Positions 534 to 22,236 of a DNA stretch of 24,148 nucleotides are shown piece by piece. The translations under genes and the position numbers were made by a program. The stretch is from the IMG/VR virus record IMGVR_UViG_3300006810_000374, positions 1 to 24,148 of that record. One strand, written 5' to 3'. The DNA is from a virus. How positions within the stretch are numbered: the stretch's first letter is position 1; every line of letters begins with the position of its first letter. Below the pieces are notes generated by a model, which was not told the DNA's origin, ran no database searches, and worked only from the letters and a program-made list of their open reading frames with translations.

Positions 534-1754
534 ATGATAAATGTTTTAGATAAATTTTATTGTTCATCAGAACAAGTAGAACATAAATCCCTATTAGGTT
601 ACCTCAGATATTATAGTAATAAAGGTATTGACTTGCCTATCAATATAGTACAGGATACTAATCAACCTACACTTATCTTTGTCCATACAAATACTGTACA
701 CCATGTTCCAATGGAAGAAGTACAGGAAATTGTCACATTTTATAAAAAACATAAAAGCAATAAAATTATTATAGATACCTGTATAGAAGAATTTGTTGAT
801 GACAAATATTATACACTTATAGATAGACTTGAAGCATTAGACGTTGATCCTTTAGATATTGTAGTGTTTACAGGACAAAATTCTATAGAAAATTTTGTAA
901 CTGATTACAATATAAGACATACTTGTTTTTCCTGTCAAGGATTCGAACTAATGTATAATATATACATAGAATTATTATTGGACTTAAAAGGCACGCCGCA
1001 CGAAACACCTGGATTGGATTTTATTTATAGACCTATCACTCCTAGAAAATTAAAAAAACATTTTATAAGTTATAAAAAGAATGGTAGGCGGTTGAGGAAA
1101 TTATTTCATGCGGTAATGTTAGACAAAGGATTTATAGATAAATCTTATTACAGTTGGCATGCCACAAAACCGTTTGGAAAACACGATATAACATTCTTAA
1201 AATATTTTAATTATTTAGATGATAGTGTTACAATAGATAACTTTAAAGAAGATTATAAAAAATACGAACAAAAGATTATACCTAACTCTATAGAAGGCAG
1301 TTTAGAATGGTGTTTTGAAGACGAAGTAATATTACATGGCGGTATTAACTTGCCTCATGAAACACATGTAAGTTTAGACTTTTGGCAACCTGACCAATTG
1401 AAAACATCTGACAGAATATTCTTTACAGAAAAAACTTACAAAAACTTTGTATATGGAATGCCTTTTGTAAATTTGGGTATTCCAAGAGCTGAATTAGTAT
1501 TACAACAAATGGGATATAGAGGGTTCGATGATTTGTTTGGTATGAATAAAGACCCACACAATTATTATAAAAATGTAGAACAGAGTATAGAACTTTTAGA
1601 TACTATAGGAAATATGCCTTTACAAGAATTAGAAGACATACTTAATAGTGATGTTGCAATGGATAGGTTAAGACATAATCAAGAAGTATTTAGAGAGCAA
1701 CGACAATTTAAGAAGTTATTGTTTGATCTAGAGTCTATTTGTGATAAATACTAG
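534..1754 (+). CDS. Phage protein with glycan-transfer-like C-terminal motif
   Basis: 406 residues. Two blocks stand out. Around residues 165-205 a basic segment (ITPRKLKKHFISYKKNGRR) is followed by LDKGFIDKSYYSW. Around 296-325 lies FFTEKTYKNFVYGMPFV followed by LGIPRAELVLQQMGYRGFDDLF. This pairing is familiar from large hypothetical proteins of marine T4-like phages that are sometimes labelled glycosyltransferase-like, because the TEKT...PF pattern resembles the nucleotide-sugar-binding half of GT-B enzymes. No catalytic residues can be assigned, so the function is a guess. The start is fixed by the late promoter five bases upstream; there is no Shine-Dalgarno site. The 3' end overlaps the promoter of the next gene, whose ATG comes one base after this stop codon. 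Confidence 0.85.
   Translation: MINVLDKFYCSSEQVEHKSLLGYLRYYSNKGIDLPINIVQDTNQPTLIFVHTNTVHHVPMEEVQEIVTFYKKHKSNKIIIDTCIEEFVDDKYYTLIDRLEALDVDPLDIVVFTGQNSIENFVTDYNIRHTCFSCQGFELMYNIYIELLLDLKGTPHETPGLDFIYRPITPRKLKKHFISYKKNGRRLRKLFHAVMLDKGFIDKSYYSWHATKPFGKHDITFLKYFNYLDDSVTIDNFKEDYKKYEQKIIPNSIEGSLEWCFEDEVILHGGINLPHETHVSLDFWQPDQLKTSDRIFFTEKTYKNFVYGMPFVNLGIPRAELVLQQMGYRGFDDLFGMNKDPHNYYKNVEQSIELLDTIGNMPLQELEDILNSDVAMDRLRHNQEVFREQRQFKKLLFDLESICDKY
1743..1750 (+). promoter_or_regulatory. Late promoter GATAAATA, leaderless geometry
   Basis: GATAAATA, a 7/8 match to TATAAATA, then five bases (CTAGT) and the ATG at 1756. It is embedded in the last codons of the preceding gene. The 15-base context (ATAAATACTAG plus ATG) is almost the same as that before the gene at 534. 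Confidence 0.65.
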
Positions 1755-4978: not shown

Positions 4979-5053
4979 TGGTACCCTGTAGGAGAATCGA
5001 ACTCCTGTTGCATGGATGAAAACCATGTGTCCTAACCACTAGACGAACAGGGC
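4979..5053 (-). tRNA. tRNA-Glu (UUC)
   Basis: A complete cloverleaf reads on the minus strand from 5053. The acceptor GCCCTGT pairs with ACAGGGT (G-T at the first pair), the D arm is TCTAGTGGTTAGGA, and the anticodon stem CATGG/CCATG encloses TTTTCAT, giving anticodon TTC. The T arm is AGGAGTTCGATTCTCCT. CCA is encoded (4979-4981). It is the only tRNA in the window outside the 13.6-14.2 kb cluster. Confidence 0.95.
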
Positions 5054-5063
5054 ACAAACTGGA

Positions 5064-5274
5064 GGGATGGTTCACACTTTACACTCATGTCGTGTATTTA
5101 AAAATGTGGACTGGTGTTGCTTCGTGAACCTGTCCCTTACCCGAGGTTATTAACCCCCTATTGATAAATAGGTATGAGGAGCGGTACACATTGGGAATTT
5201 ACCATGGGGAACAGTAGCAACTACACTCACCTTTTTACCCAAACCCAGTTTACGAAATACCACTCGGGCTCCTC
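5064..5274 (-). ncRNA. Candidate structured RNA beside tRNA-Glu
   Basis: About 210 bases without a convincing ORF but with four consecutive hairpin domains. (1) GGGA plus GGTTCAC (5064-5075) pairs with GTGAACC plus TCCC (5124-5136), enclosing TACAC/GTGTA (5080-5084/5092-5096). (2) GGTTA-T-TAACC (5145-5155). (3) CCTATT/AATAGG with a GATA loop (5157-5172). (4) GAGGAGC (5176-5182) pairs with GCTCCTC (5268-5274), continued by GGTA/TACC (5183-5186/5258-5261). The stretch is visibly richer in GC than flanking DNA. Minus strand is preferred because the flanking gene and tRNA-Glu read that way and would be co-transcribed. It does not look like tmRNA or RNase P RNA. Function unknown. Confidence 0.55.
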
Positions 5275-5521
5275 AATTTTTTCTTAATTGCTTTGAAAGT
5301 TCTGCAGTTACTCTGCGTTCTTCTAACAGGCTTTTAAATGCAACTAAGTCGTCTTCTTTTAAAACACGTTTCATAGCATCGTGTGGCTTTATATCTAATT
5401 GTCTAGCCACATAGGCAGTAAATTCTATTAAATCATATCTGCCTATATTATGCTTTTTGCATATGGCCTCAACATCTACTTGATTGTTGAACTCTTCATC
5501 TCTATAAATGTCTTTGGTCAT
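5273..5521 (-). CDS. Small hypothetical protein, early-type promoter
   Basis: 82 residues starting MTKDIYRDEEFNNQVDVEAI. It is predicted to be mostly helical and charged, with the pattern CKKHNIGRYDLIEFTAYVA in the middle and a Lys/Arg-rich C-terminus. No family is recognised. The start is set by a consensus sigma70 promoter whose TATAAT ends five bases before the ATG; there is no Shine-Dalgarno site. The stop codon lies inside the right arm of the GAGGAGC/GCTCCTC inverted repeat, so the end of this mRNA merges with the candidate structured RNA. Confidence 0.8.
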   Translation of the reverse strand: MTKDIYRDEEFNNQVDVEAICKKHNIGRYDLIEFTAYVARQLDIKPHDAMKRVLKEDDLVAFKSLLEERRVTAELSKQLRKN

Positions 5522-5526
5522 AATGT

Positions 5527-5554
5527 ATTATACTACCTTTTTGTGGGTTGTCAA
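5527..5554 (-). promoter_or_regulatory. Consensus sigma70-type promoter, leaderless geometry
   Basis: TTGACA (5549-5554), 16-base spacer, TATAAT (5527-5532), five bases, ATG at 5521, all on the minus strand. The layout is identical to the promoter at 4101-4128. It overlaps the stop of the upstream gene. Confidence 0.8.
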
Positions 5555-15865: not shown

Positions 15866-16005
15866 TATTTTTTCTCTTCCTTATACTTCTCTTTACGAGG
15901 TATAGTTTTTGTTTTATCCTTTTGTACTTTGTGTCCGAAAGGAGAGTCATGAGTAAACAACTGCAAGTGCGATCTTGTTTTTGGTTTATCCGTTTTCTTC
16001 GACAT
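15865..16005 (-). CDS. Small basic protein with [11 protein letters not shown] motif, 46 aa
   Basis: 46 residues, [20 protein letters not shown] then SPFGHK and a Lys-rich tail. About 40 percent of residues are Lys or Arg. The RSHLxLFxxDSPF block resembles short conserved proteins of marine T4-like phages. The start lies inside the last 20 bases of the ferredoxin gene, with AGGTGA 6 bases upstream, and the stop overlaps the next ATG as TAATG. Such tight packing makes it very likely to be real. The function is unknown. Confidence 0.75.
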
Positions 16006-16324
16006 GTTTCTCACCTATTGCTACTGCTTCTTCTGTACTATATGGACTTTCGTGTGCCATTGGTTCTTTAGTTTCTGTGATGTTTGGCCACACTTGGCTC
16101 ATTGCATCATTTATTTCTATAAATGGTATTTGTTCTGCTGGTAGCTCATCATCACTCCAAATTGCTTCTACAGGACATTCTGGTTCACATAATGCACAAT
16201 CAATACACTCATCAGGATTGATTACCAGCATATCAGGTCCTTCATAGAAACAATCTACAGGACATACCTCTACGCATTTCGTGTCTTTACATCCAACACA
16301 GGGACTACCTACTATAAAACTCAT
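15986..16324 (-). CDS. fdxA: 7Fe ferredoxin ([3Fe-4S][4Fe-4S])
   Basis: 112 residues, the usual length of Azotobacter FdI/FdxA-type ferredoxins. Nine cysteines lie at 9, 12, 17, 21, 25, 40, 43, 46 and 50. [18 protein letters not shown] (9-26) forms the N-terminal cluster region and [12 protein letters not shown] (40-51) the classic 4Fe motif. The [14 protein letters not shown] and [15 protein letters not shown] blocks are nearly identical to proteobacterial FdxA. It is a soluble low-potential electron carrier. A phage copy could feed electrons to a reductase or, speculatively, to the radical SAM enzyme at 20951. It is driven by its own TTGACT-N16-TATAAT promoter, so it is probably an early gene. 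The Shine-Dalgarno is weak. Confidence 0.95.
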
Positions 16325-18420: not shown

Positions 18421-19950
18421 ATGGCGGCATATATTGTAGCATTAGATAGCGGAACACATGCTGACGCAACAGCGGCTCAAAGTGCTATTACAGGCGCAGG
18501 AGCAACGATTACGGAAACGTATTCTTTTAACTTAACTTATAAAATTGAATGTACAGCGGATCAACTTGCCGCGATAGCAGGTGTTTTACATAGTTCTTTG
18601 GATAGTGCAACTGAAAATTTATCATCGCAGTATTCAACAGATCACTTAAAACATTTATGCAACAATGTATCTAATAGTTTAGCAACTGCATATAATCCTC
18701 TATATACAGGAACAGGTTCTGAAGTTTATCTATTAGATACTGGTATTAACACAAGTCACGTAGAATTTGCAAATGCCACTATTAATAATTTACATAGTTT
18801 ATATACTGTTGATGGAAGTCCGGATTATGCAGATTCCACAGGACACGGTACTGCGATGTGTAGTGTTATCAACGGAGAAAATATAGGTGTTTCACCTGAT
18901 GCAAAAGTCCATAATGTTAAGGTAATGAATAGTTCTAATGTTGCTTTAAGTGTAGGTGATATGATTGGTGCTTTTAACCAAGTTCTAGTACACCATCAAG
19001 CAAATACACCAAATAAAGTTAAAACAGTATGTATACCATGGACTACTGCTAAAAACAGTCTTATAGATGCTAAATTAGAAGAATTAGAATCACACAATCT
19101 AATGGTTATTTGTTCAGCAGGTAATAATGCATCAGATGTAGATAACTACTCACCTGCTGGTTTAGATCAAGTAATGACTGTGGGTGCGTATAACTCTAGT
19201 TATAATGTAGGTGGGTTTGGTGCCGATGCTACTTGGACTGGTACTTCAACTGGAAGTAACCTAGGGGAAGAAGTTGATATCTACGCAATAGGTTCTAATG
19301 TTAGTATTGCCGATCACAGTAATGTATCTAACTACCAATCAGCATATGGTACCAGTATATCAACTGCCATTATCGCAGGTTTATCAGCACAATATATTCA
19401 ACAAACTCCCACAGCAACTTCATCACAAACTAAATCATTTATAGTAAATGAAGGAAAAGTATCAGGGAGAGGAAGATCACTTACATTTATAGATGGACTC
19501 ATAACATCAACAGGTGCAAATGTAGAACTTTTATCAAAGTCCATTGGTGTTAGTCCTCAGGTAGGAGAAGTAAATCTATCCACATTACCATCAGGAATGG
19601 TTATCTCACTTGCTAACGGTCAAACAGGTAATGTTAATGTAGGTTTAAATGCAAGTGCTTCTAACGTTAGTGTTTTAACTTTTAGTCCAGTACCACCGTT
19701 TGCTACTTTTAATACAAGTACAGGTGTAATAGATGTTGATACTACTTCTAATATGACAGGTGTTACAGTTCCAGGTAAATATCACTTTGCAGTAAAAGGA
19801 ACAATAGGCGGCGTAACTAAAGTTGAAGAATATACTATAGGTATTTACGCGGCAGGTGGAGCAGAAACAGATTTAGATGCATCTGCTGAATTTTATTGGG
19901 ACGGTGCAAGTTTCGACCAAGTTGTAAACTTTACATCTACCAAAGAATAA
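18421..19950 (+). CDS. Subtilisin-like serine protease (S8) with Ig-like C-terminal region
   Basis: 509 residues. An N-terminal propeptide-like region (about 1-80) precedes the S8 domain. The catalytic residues are visible: Asp106 in VYLLDTGIN, His142 in GHGTAMCSVI, oxyanion Asn235 in CSAGNN and Ser312 in YGTSISTAIIAG (usually GTSMATP). The region about 365-480 is Ser/Thr/Gly-rich beta strands with the pattern of Ig-like or cadherin-like virion domains. No signal peptide is present. Late promoter and beta-rich tail suggest a structural or virion-associated protease, for example for tail-fibre maturation or receptor degradation; this is inference. GGAG precedes the start. Confidence 0.9.
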   Translation: MAAYIVALDSGTHADATAAQSAITGAGATITETYSFNLTYKIECTADQLAAIAGVLHSSLDSATENLSSQYSTDHLKHLCNNVSNSLATAYNPLYTGTGSEVYLLDTGINTSHVEFANATINNLHSLYTVDGSPDYADSTGHGTAMCSVINGENIGVSPDAKVHNVKVMNSSNVALSVGDMIGAFNQVLVHHQANTPNKVKTVCIPWTTAKNSLIDAKLEELESHNLMVICSAGNNASDVDNYSPAGLDQVMTVGAYNSSYNVGGFGADATWTGTSTGSNLGEEVDIYAIGSNVSIADHSNVSNYQSAYGTSISTAIIAGLSAQYIQQTPTATSSQTKSFIVNEGKVSGRGRSLTFIDGLITSTGANVELLSKSIGVSPQVGEVNLSTLPSGMVISLANGQTGNVNVGLNASASNVSVLTFSPVPPFATFNTSTGVIDVDTTSNMTGVTVPGKYHFAVKGTIGGVTKVEEYTIGIYAAGGAETDLDASAEFYWDGASFDQVVNFTSTKE

Positions 19951-19983: not shown

Positions 19984-20970
19984 ATGGAACATATCTTTAT
20001 AGATCTTACATCAAAAAATAATCAATTTATTTGTGTTGAAGACCAAGGTTCTTGGTTATTCCATAGATTTGGTAAAAGACGTATAGATAACGAAGAATTA
20101 GATTTTAACCTTTTAAAAAAATATCTTAAAAAAGAATCCCCAAAACAAATTACATTATATAGTATTTTAGGAGATCCAATGGAATACTCTAGAATATTGG
20201 ATTTGCTATTCTTTTGTAAACGTTCAGATATAGTTGTAAATATAAACTGCAATGGTTTCAGCAAAAAGATTAAAGATACATTAGGATATGATATAGAATA
20301 CTGTTTTAAAATCTACGGCTATAAAAACACATTAGATATAATTGTTCCAAATGCAGATAAAACATTATTTAAGAATTTAAATTTAGATTTTAAAATAAAA
20401 CCTAAAATACAATACATGTTGTATGATCATAATCTTTGTGATGTAAAACATATTATAAGATTGAGTGAAGAAAAAAAGTTTACATTGGAAATACATCCTG
20501 GTGTATGTGTTTATAATAATCTAAACCATGTAATAGACCAACAAGGTAAATGGTTGTATGATATAAAAGGAGTAGACGAATATGATTTAGATATTTTTTA
20601 TAAACCTTTTACAGAATTTAAAAATTTAAAAAAAATATTTAATAGTTTCAAACAAACCAACTATAAGTTATCTCAAACAAATGAGGGCTGGCACCTGCTT
20701 AAAAATTATGTCAAGGATACCGGCATAAGTATTTTGGATGCTTCATTACCTAATATACAAAGTAATAAATCTTTTAAAAAAATTAAATGTATTTCTTACA
20801 AAGGACATATTTTTGATAATATAGAATCCTTCACTGTAGTAACTAATGCATATATTCCTGATTGGACTATTCAAAAATTTAATACAAGAGACTCTTATCA
20901 AAAAAATATATTTGAAATTTTATCTGAATTTTCTAACAGTGAAAAATTATCTATAAAGTCTTTGTTATAG
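19984..20970 (+). CDS. Radical-SAM-like barrel protein without cluster cysteines
   Basis: 328 residues. The middle (YSILGDPMEYSRILDLLFF, about 59-77, then IVVNINCNGFSKK, about 83-95) has the layout of radical SAM strands beta2-beta3 (GGDPxLxp...L...VxxxTNG), yet no CxxxCxxC occurs anywhere; Cys residues are few and scattered. It may therefore be a degenerate or accessory subunit that binds SAM or a peptide without doing radical chemistry. It has a late promoter five bases before the ATG and no Shine-Dalgarno. It converges with the true radical SAM gene and overlaps it by 20 bases. The similarity was judged by eye and is weak; an unrelated TIM-barrel protein is a real alternative. Confidence 0.6.
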   Translation: MEHIFIDLTSKNNQFICVEDQGSWLFHRFGKRRIDNEELDFNLLKKYLKKESPKQITLYSILGDPMEYSRILDLLFFCKRSDIVVNINCNGFSKKIKDTLGYDIEYCFKIYGYKNTLDIIVPNADKTLFKNLNLDFKIKPKIQYMLYDHNLCDVKHIIRLSEEKKFTLEIHPGVCVYNNLNHVIDQQGKWLYDIKGVDEYDLDIFYKPFTEFKNLKKIFNSFKQTNYKLSQTNEGWHLLKNYVKDTGISILDASLPNIQSNKSFKKIKCISYKGHIFDNIESFTVVTNAYIPDWTIQKFNTRDSYQKNIFEILSEFSNSEKLSIKSLL

Positions 20971-21964
20971 AGATATCAGATATATTGTTACAAAAATCAA
21001 AAGGGCAAACAGTTTTAGTTTCAGGCAACTCCCAAAAATTATTAGATATATTACCAAAGTTTTTCGCACCGCACCAACTACTGTAAATCTCTCCACTTGC
21101 ATCTATATTTAAACTTTCAAAACCTAGATGGCATCTAAGTCCTCTAAATGCATTAAGTCCTTTATCTATTATTTGATGACCCTGTACATATTCTGCTGTT
21201 CCATCATCGTATAAAAATTCTGTCATAAATGCATTTGGATCTGGTACAGGAAAATCATCCTCTACATTTGACTCTCTTCTAATTTCTTGTTGCTTTATTC
21301 CTGGCCTTTCTAATACTTCTTTTTCCTGATCTGTATATTCCCAGTATGTTTGTTGCTTACTATGACGGCCTAAGAGCTTCTTATACATAGTTTTTACACA
21401 TATACTAACATGATTATAATTGTTGTGTTCACAATCTATAAATAGATTTCTTAGTTCTTCTACAAAATTTCCTAAGTCTTCTACTTGTCCGCCTATACCT
21501 GCTATGTTTATATCTATAAAAACATGCTCTTTAATTTCATTTATAACATCTATAAAATGTTGTTTTTCTTGTGATAGGGGATGATATGTTAATACAACTG
21601 CATTCATATAATACTTAGCCTTAGACCACCAATTAACTGTTCTACTGGCATTTGTATATACTGTACTAGTTGTGTTGTATTCGCTTATAGTTCTTATAAT
21701 ATCCTCAAATCCAGGTATTACAGTAACCTCTCCTCCTATTAATTCGTAGTCTATACGTTTGCCTAGACTATTATAATATTTAGAAAATTTATTTATTGCA
21801 TCTATATATTGATCTTTACTAAGCCAGGGTTTAGTTCCATCATGTAATTGAGTAGGACAATACTCACATTCGTAATTACATGAGTTACCCATATTCCATT
21901 GTATTCTTATAAAATCGTTGTCATTTCTGGCATGAGGGCCTTTGACCGAAACCAGATTAGGCAT
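20951..21964 (-). CDS. Radical SAM enzyme with SPASM-like C-terminus
   Basis: 337 residues from ATG 21964; a longer frame to 22015 runs into the PAAR gene and is rejected because TAATG couples ATG 21964 to the PAAR stop. The [4Fe-4S] motif is SCNYECEYC (28-36; Cys29, Cys33, Cys36). ELIGGEVTVIPGFEDI and STVYTNASR continue the radical SAM core. The C-terminus has further Cys (RCHLGFE, SSWCGAK, VCPFDFCNN), suggesting auxiliary clusters as in SPASM/twitch enzymes, which often modify peptides or proteins. The substrate is unknown. The tight link to the PAAR protein hints at a virion target. Ferredoxin at 15986 could be a reductant. Confidence 0.88.
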   Translation of the reverse strand: MPNLVSVKGPHARNDNDFIRIQWNMGNSCNYECEYCPTQLHDGTKPWLSKDQYIDAINKFSKYYNSLGKRIDYELIGGEVTVIPGFEDIIRTISEYNTTSTVYTNASRTVNWWSKAKYYMNAVVLTYHPLSQEKQHFIDVINEIKEHVFIDINIAGIGGQVEDLGNFVEELRNLFIDCEHNNYNHVSICVKTMYKKLLGRHSKQQTYWEYTDQEKEVLERPGIKQQEIRRESNVEDDFPVPDPNAFMTEFLYDDGTAEYVQGHQIIDKGLNAFRGLRCHLGFESLNIDASGEIYSSWCGAKNFGNISNNFWELPETKTVCPFDFCNNISDISITKTL

Positions 21965-22236
21965 TAGAAACCTGCAAATACTGTTGCTGAACCAAAGGTA
22001 ATAGGGTGTCCACATGTAGTACCACTGCCTACAAGAGTAATAGGTCGTCCTTCAGCAAATACTGATGCTGAACCATTCACTACGAAAGAGGAACTGTGAG
22101 GGGGCTCGCCATGAGGAGCAACTTGGTCTCCTACTAAACTAATAGGCTTGCCTTCTACAAGTACTGAGGGAGCACCTGTATTGATAATAATGGCACTTAC
22201 TGTACCACTGGCAAAAACTGGACATGTATTAGGCAT
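21964..22236 (-). CDS. PAAR-domain spike-tip protein (T4 gp5.4 type)
   Basis: 90 residues with two PAAR-like repeats. GAPSVLVEGKPISLVGDQVAPHG (about 21-43) and SASVFAEGRPITLVGSGTTCGH (about 56-77) show the strand-turn pattern and metal-binding His/Cys of the family. The protein ends SATVFAGF. PAAR proteins form the sharpened tip on the baseplate central spike of myophages (T4 gp5.4) and type VI secretion systems. Length and composition fit the family. A GATAAATA element with five-base spacing precedes the ATG, giving a late leaderless mRNA, and the stop overlaps the radical SAM start as TAATG. Confidence 0.9.
   Translation of the reverse strand: MPNTCPVFASGTVSAIIINTGAPSVLVEGKPISLVGDQVAPHGEPPHSSSFVVNGSASVFAEGRPITLVGSGTTCGHPITFGSATVFAGF

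Follow-up and report, generated by a model that had tools for sequence, protein, structure and literature searches.

The window, by which we mean the whole 24,148-nt stretch analysed here (positions 1 to 24,148 of IMG/VR virus record IMGVR_UViG_3300006810_000374, from an uncultured T4-like phage), contains an inverted-repeat region between a small protein gene and a tRNA-Glu gene. The features of this locus, listed from 5′ to 3′ on the minus strand, are as follows.

5527–5554, minus strand: sigma-70-type promoter, TTGACA-16-TATAAT, ahead of orf82 (consensus scan)
5273–5521, minus strand: orf82, conserved phage protein of 82 aa, with its stop codon in the closing stem of module A
5174–5276, minus strand: module A (alignments A1/A3, pair counts, covariance model R1)
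5268–5276, minus strand: P1a 5′ arm, paired with 5174–5182, every pair position changed on both sides in relatives
5258–5261, minus strand: P1b 5′ strand GGUA, paired with 5183–5186 (U-A replaced by C-G in L220)
5244–5246, minus strand: P2 5′ strand GGG, paired with 5193–5195 (GAG/CUC in L087, AGG/CCU in L141)
5193–5195, minus strand: P2 3′ strand CCC (alignment, pair counts)
5183–5186, minus strand: P1b 3′ strand UACC (pair counts)
5174–5182, minus strand: P1a 3′ arm (pair counts)
5060–5171, minus strand: module B (alignment A2, RNAalifold, pair counts, covariance model R2)
5143–5157, minus strand: Pb1 hairpin of the GGGGN...NCCUC type, two pairs of which covary
5124–5141, minus strand: Pb2/Pb3 5′ strand (GGUAAGGGACAGGUUCAC), paired with 5061–5075
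5114–5117, minus strand: Pb4 5′ strand, paired with 5081–5084, with double changes in 4/4 pairs
5081–5084, minus strand: Pb4 3′ strand (RNAalifold, pair counts)
5061–5075, minus strand: Pb2/Pb3 3′ strand (GUGAACCAUCCCUCC; pair counts)
4979–5053, minus strand: tRNA-Glu (UUC), directly downstream of module B (ARAGORN; Rfam tRNA, 61.6 bits)

A promoter scan of the window returned three sites against 2.5 expected in shuffles, and the site ahead of orf82 matches the consensus at 12/12 positions. Because of this promoter, orf82, module A, module B and tRNA-Glu likely form a single co-transcribed unit, as read from sequence. A protein search with orf82, which belongs to no Pfam or PHROGs family, retrieved the IMG/VR contigs L001 (90% amino acid identity) and L002 (82%), in both of which the region likewise precedes tRNA-Glu. 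Between the window and L002, module A is 98.1% identical and the tRNA 100%, with orf82 at 82.7% at the DNA level. Directly downstream of tRNA-Glu lies the gene of a RimK-like ATP-grasp protein (PF08443; 4102–4960, minus strand). RimK ligates glutamate, and the adjacency may or may not be a coincidence.

The original prediction described the region (5064–5274) as a candidate new structured RNA of four domains, richer in GC than its surroundings and closed by an arm that includes the upstream stop codon. GC content is indeed higher (0.40–0.45) than on the ATP-grasp side (0.21–0.25) or the other side (0.33–0.37), and all four arms were found in the window sequence: an 11-bp arm with a small bulge (GGGA-CA-GGUUCAC/GUGAACC-A-UCCC, plus-strand positions 5064–5075 with 5125–5136), a 5-bp arm (GGTTATTAACC, 5145–5155), a 6-bp arm (CCTATT...AATAGG, 5157–5172) and a 7+4-bp arm (GAGGAGC+GGTA/TACC+GCTCCTC, 5176–5187 with 5258–5274), within which the TGA of orf82 falls. 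Folding energy computed from the window alone showed no significant excess over shuffles on either strand (minus strand, MFE −64.2 vs −57.1 ± 4.8, z = −1.48; plus strand, z = −1.53), so the evidence behind the prediction was insufficient by itself to settle the matter. A conserved protein reading through the region is ruled out, since no ORF of at least 50 aa in the window ORF list spans 5060–5272 and relatives differ there by indels of 1–2 nt.

Comparison with relatives established that modules A and B are real structured RNAs: in dozens of other phages, a mutation on one side of a pair is matched on the other side so that pairing is kept. Among 32 sequences of module A, double-sided changes that keep the pair were found in 12/16 pairs (P1a 9/9, P1b 1/4, P2 2/3), with 114 double-changed cells against 33 ± 5 in shuffles and 94.9% of cells paired compared with 38–58% in slid registers. 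The 14 sequences of module B gave the same kind of result, with such changes in 11/23 pairs, 50 double-changed cells against 17 in shuffles, and 96.3% of cells paired compared with 37–54% in slid registers. For neither module was the observed covariation score reached in any of 500 shuffles. The two main predicted arms, of 11 bp and 7+4 bp, thus keep pairing in relatives and are upheld by compensatory changes. The 5-bp arm tops a hairpin that covaries, and the register of that hairpin shifts. The 6-bp arm occurs only in near-identical relatives, is missing from L033, L091 and L145, and is unsupported.

The inverted-repeat region is RNA structure on the minus strand, which is the strand of tRNA-Glu, because the helices contain conserved G-U wobbles, which would read as A-C mismatches on the opposite strand. 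The first P1b pair is G-U in 17 of the 32 module A sequences, and pair 17-29 of module B is G-U in 14/14. In both modules the compensatory changes, and conserved G-U pairs that share a single polarity, require that pairing occurs in RNA. The region comprises two separate modules rather than the single RNA first envisaged, and each is found alone: module A occurs without B in L045, L057, L074, L079, L094, L141, L165, L167, L220, L223 and others, and module B without A in L145, L147 and L154.

Module A, which is 60–105 nt long with the shortest forms (L074, L087, L091) at about 60 nt, consists of a variable stem enclosing a near-invariant core of about 30 nt. The 5′ half has the consensus P1a, a 6-nt bulge NCGAGU, GGUA (P1b), UUUCGUAAAYU, GGG (P2) and a variable hairpin P3, after which the 3′ half continues with CCC, UAAGUG, UACY (P1b) and P1a. 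P1a has at least 9 bp and is free in sequence, and the conserved internal loop between P1b and P2 reads UUUCGUAAANU // NANGUG. Covariance model R1 scores the module of the window at 89 bits (E = 3.7e-22). A D-loop-like reading of AGUGGUA was rejected, as GGUA pairs in P1b and a compensatory change is present in L220.

Module B, about 110 nt long, opens with the 5′ hairpin Pb1, which carries GNRA-like loops in L145 and L154, followed by a short linker and a long irregular stem-loop (Pb2/Pb3/Pb4) with a conserved terminal loop. The long stem contains a CA/A internal loop (GGGACAGG / CCAUCCC) and then a covarying stem. A third helix (56-59/90-93), obtained from RNAalifold, is kept in all cells except two and replaced a hairpin at 78-82/90-94. 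Covariance model R2 scores module B of the window at 114.5 bits (E = 2.3e-25).

The family was collected by pattern scans of IMG/VR with several different anchors, the last of which omitted the GUGGUAUU and ACYG ends of the module A core, and a large family was obtained. With anchors varied in this way, conservation of the core is not merely the product of one seed word, and a bias towards conserved members stays. Pattern hits sharing one short word (most of L004–L017, L022–L032 and L034–L039) were discarded as unrelated DNA. Of 30 viral records scanned whole, 26 carry a single convincing copy of module A and four carry none; the single-copy rule holds in records of 83–340 kb, including those of 217–340 kb, and module B is likewise single. 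Candidate second copies of module A in G003, G014 and G016 scored 15–18 bits and were judged to be chance. T4-type Gp23 was detected in 5/31 records searched, so at least those five belong to the T4 superfamily; most other records are fragments. BLAST searches of 50,697 isolated phage records with the window region, the A consensus, an A+B composite, module A of L220 and module B of L154 yielded no A or B, only tRNA-Glu or chance matches, and scanning 84,980 genomes of bacteria and archaea for the pattern gave six hits, all lacking P1 and P2. The whole genomes of T4, HTVC008M, P-SSM2 and KVP40 gave chance-level hits to R1 and R2; an R2 hit in KVP40 (19.7 bits) was rejected because an annotated gene of the opposite strand covers almost all of it. 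The family is known here only from uncultured phages.

In Rfam 15, tRNA alone reaches the gathering score in the window and nine related loci, and nothing credible beyond tRNA appears for the region and related loci at permissive E-values. As predicted, the hallmarks of tmRNA, RNase P RNA or a second tRNA are absent: ARAGORN reports the adjoining tRNA-Glu only, and neither it nor Rfam matches tRNA, tmRNA, RNase P RNA or 6S in 5054–5280. The module A core in this setting was not found in the literature searched, in which motif lists outside Rfam were partly covered. With no Rfam match, two main arms showing compensatory changes and no protein through the region, the description as a candidate new structured RNA stands, now as two RNA families lacking an Rfam entry, which may have been described earlier under another name.

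Several known phage RNAs invite comparison. GOLLD and ROOL are ornate RNAs of phages and prophages that often lie near tRNA islands, GOLLD often exceeding 800 nt (PMC12286853). Modules A and B resemble them in being phage-encoded structured RNAs near tRNA islands, identified by comparing genomes and metagenomes, but are far shorter, and neither GOLLD nor ROOL has an Rfam match in the window or the nine related loci. The manA and wcaG motifs of marine T4-like phages are likewise known mostly from metagenomes (PMC2864571); they differ as presumed cis-regulatory RNAs of cyanophage metabolic genes with Rfam entries (RF01745, RF01761), neither of which matches the window region. RNA C and RNA D of T4 (rnaC/rnaD, ‘species 1 and 2’; annotated in AF158101, L225:1409–1672) are, along with the much larger GOLLD and ROOL, the nearest kinds: like A and B they are small RNAs that are not translated, have no assigned function and are encoded beside tRNA genes, on the strand of those genes, in a T4-superfamily phage. 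However, they adjoin tRNA-Arg, whereas A and B precede tRNA-Glu and are found in places remote from tRNAs as well. A and B are similar to both kinds in setting and match neither. The T4 tRNA-region locus with rnaC/rnaD has no R1 or R2 match at E ≤ 10, and the whole T4 genome has two chance-level R1 hits (15.9 and 13.6 bits) and no R2 hit.

The gene neighbourhoods of module A are varied, with tRNA-Glu the recurrent partner. An intact tRNA-Glu (UUC) follows module A in 20/32 distinct rows, on the same strand in 20/20, with a short spacer in many rows and otherwise with B or a different element separating the two. When module A is preceded by a gene, the stop codon of that gene is often adjacent to P1 or overlaps it. 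In other settings module A lies upstream of a SleB-type hydrolase gene (Pfam Hydrolase_2; L049, L050, L060, L061, L092, L095, L102, L138), a small ORF usually separating it from the cell-wall hydrolase gene, or before an ORF of 113–116 aa with DNA ligase further on (L054, L106). In L223 and L224, contigs of 217 and 340 kb, it is flanked by two TTGAC(A/T)...TATAAT promoters, with tRNA genes downstream. A promoter like these occurs just ahead of module A in L033, L057, L091, L161, L164 and L223, and about 45 nt or more upstream in L074 and L167–L169. In the latter four loci (L074:3877–3936, minus strand) a short reading frame between promoter and module A enters the core and ends at its UAA; that of L074 reads MKHKNPLRFRAGPSGIS. 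An intact module A also stands beside a tRNA-Glu without its 3′ part in L087 (9132–9191, minus strand) and in L098, which suggests that module A is independent of the tRNA.

We favour, by somewhat more than even chances, the reading that A and B are independently inherited, phage-specific small RNAs that would be made in one unit with tRNA-Glu, then freed, and would act in trans through the core of module A. Minus-strand transcription from the sigma-70-type promoter would yield orf82, A, B and tRNA-Glu as one RNA; 5′ maturation of the tRNA by RNase P would cut the A-B RNA away; and the freed RNA could persist as a small stable RNA whose invariant core is recognised by a widely conserved host or phage protein. 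Other phage tRNA regions encode small stable RNAs, themselves unexplained, that offer a possible precedent. Action in trans is preferred to a leader of a single gene since the modules assort independently, the core of module A is kept while the downstream gene changes, and module A can form a transcription unit of its own.

Its recurrent position before tRNA-Glu makes a role in cis the main rival, and a possible one to which we give clearly less credence. A and B would then act on their own transcript by put-like antitermination, as a 5′ stabiliser, or as a guide for processing of the tRNA-Glu precursor. Module A recurs 5–10 nt upstream of tRNA-Glu in divergent phages, where it could serve transcription or processing of the tRNA, and directly after a promoter in the six loci named above; no intrinsic terminator follows A or B, and tRNA transcripts, being untranslated, are typical targets of antitermination. 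The HK022 put RNA, a short promoter-proximal phage antitermination RNA with conserved unpaired bases, may be comparable, though module A is single-copy and often has no long operon after it. A dedicated leader also fits poorly with the variety of downstream genes (the SleB hydrolase operon, ORF113, jumbo-phage ORFs) and with the second promoter within tens of nucleotides after module A in L223/L224. In L001, moreover, tRNA-Glu is followed by a convergent gene with nothing directly after it on the same strand, leaving little in need of antitermination.

It is unlikely that module A is a self-cleaving ribozyme cutting polycistronic RNA between genes. With a minimal size of about 60 nt, internal loops that do not vary, a closing stem that does, and a place between a stop codon and the next gene, it resembles phage-borne small ribozymes, but known small ribozymes have fewer invariant bases, and no Rfam ribozyme family (hammerhead, hairpin, HDV, twister, twister-sister, pistol or hatchet among them) matches the region at E ≤ 10 or L220, L223, L164 and L057 at E ≤ 5. 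A riboswitch-like aptamer controlling the next gene is somewhat more improbable again: aptamers typically look like module A, with an asymmetric conserved internal-loop core enclosed in a stem of variable sequence, and in L049, L060 and L061 the module probably belongs to the 5′ UTR of a small operon, but P1 is not followed by any recurrent expression platform (a terminator, or a stem that sequesters the ribosome site), and the downstream genes are unrelated, with tRNA the commonest. The notion of a DNA-level element or chance repeats without RNA function (a cruciform, recombination or packaging site), with which the unremarkable window-only folding energy (z about −1.5) would agree, is refuted in practice by the compensatory changes and one-polarity G-U pairs of both modules. 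The linkage to promoters and tRNAs on one strand also counts against it, and we consider it highly improbable.

The module A core stays nearly invariant in gene neighbourhoods that differ greatly from one another, which implies a single, strict molecular partner; a 60-nt synthetic RNA could serve to fish for it. A bolder extension, which we put forward only tentatively and rate below even the cis role, is that module A represents a new functional RNA class whose core of about 30 nt is recognised by, or acts upon, a machine common to many bacteria. Candidate partners would be RNA polymerase, a defence nuclease that targets tRNA or an RNA-binding protein of the host, and T4-superfamily phages, including those of 217–340 kb, might deploy module A from a shuffling cassette of small RNAs (A, B and the pseudoknot motif C described below) centred on tRNA-Glu. 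The covariance models of A and B are ready for annotation, and the two modules enlarge the small set of phage RNAs beside tRNAs without a known purpose; the conserved link with tRNA-Glu bears on why phages retain particular tRNAs.

Two other RNA-like elements were observed in related loci. Motif C, NNGUCAACNGCNCUUGGACNN...GNGC followed by AGAGUAG, has by sequence the form of an H-type pseudoknot and occurs on the minus strand at L051:2178, L062:7575, L057:2823, L141:3983 and about 5590 in L145. Its stem varies as GAGUC/GACUC, AAGUC/GACUU, CAGUC/GACUG and GGUC/GACC, its loop as GCAC/GUGC and GCUC/GAGC, and its order relative to A and tRNA-Glu shuffles (C-A-tRNA, A-C-tRNA, A-tRNA-C). It is reminiscent of type III systems, in which the antitoxins are small pseudoknot RNAs. 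In L154, an element of about 70 nt with tRNA-like ends (GGGUACGGCC...GCCCUGCCCA; about 976–1049, minus strand) lies between module B and tRNA-Thr; ARAGORN does not recognise it, and in Rfam it gets no more than a weak hit below threshold (Atu_C4, 14.2 bits). Elsewhere in the window, translations judged by eye resemble a ferredoxin (15986–16324, minus strand), a subtilase (18421–19950, plus strand) and a radical-SAM protein (20951–22015, minus strand).
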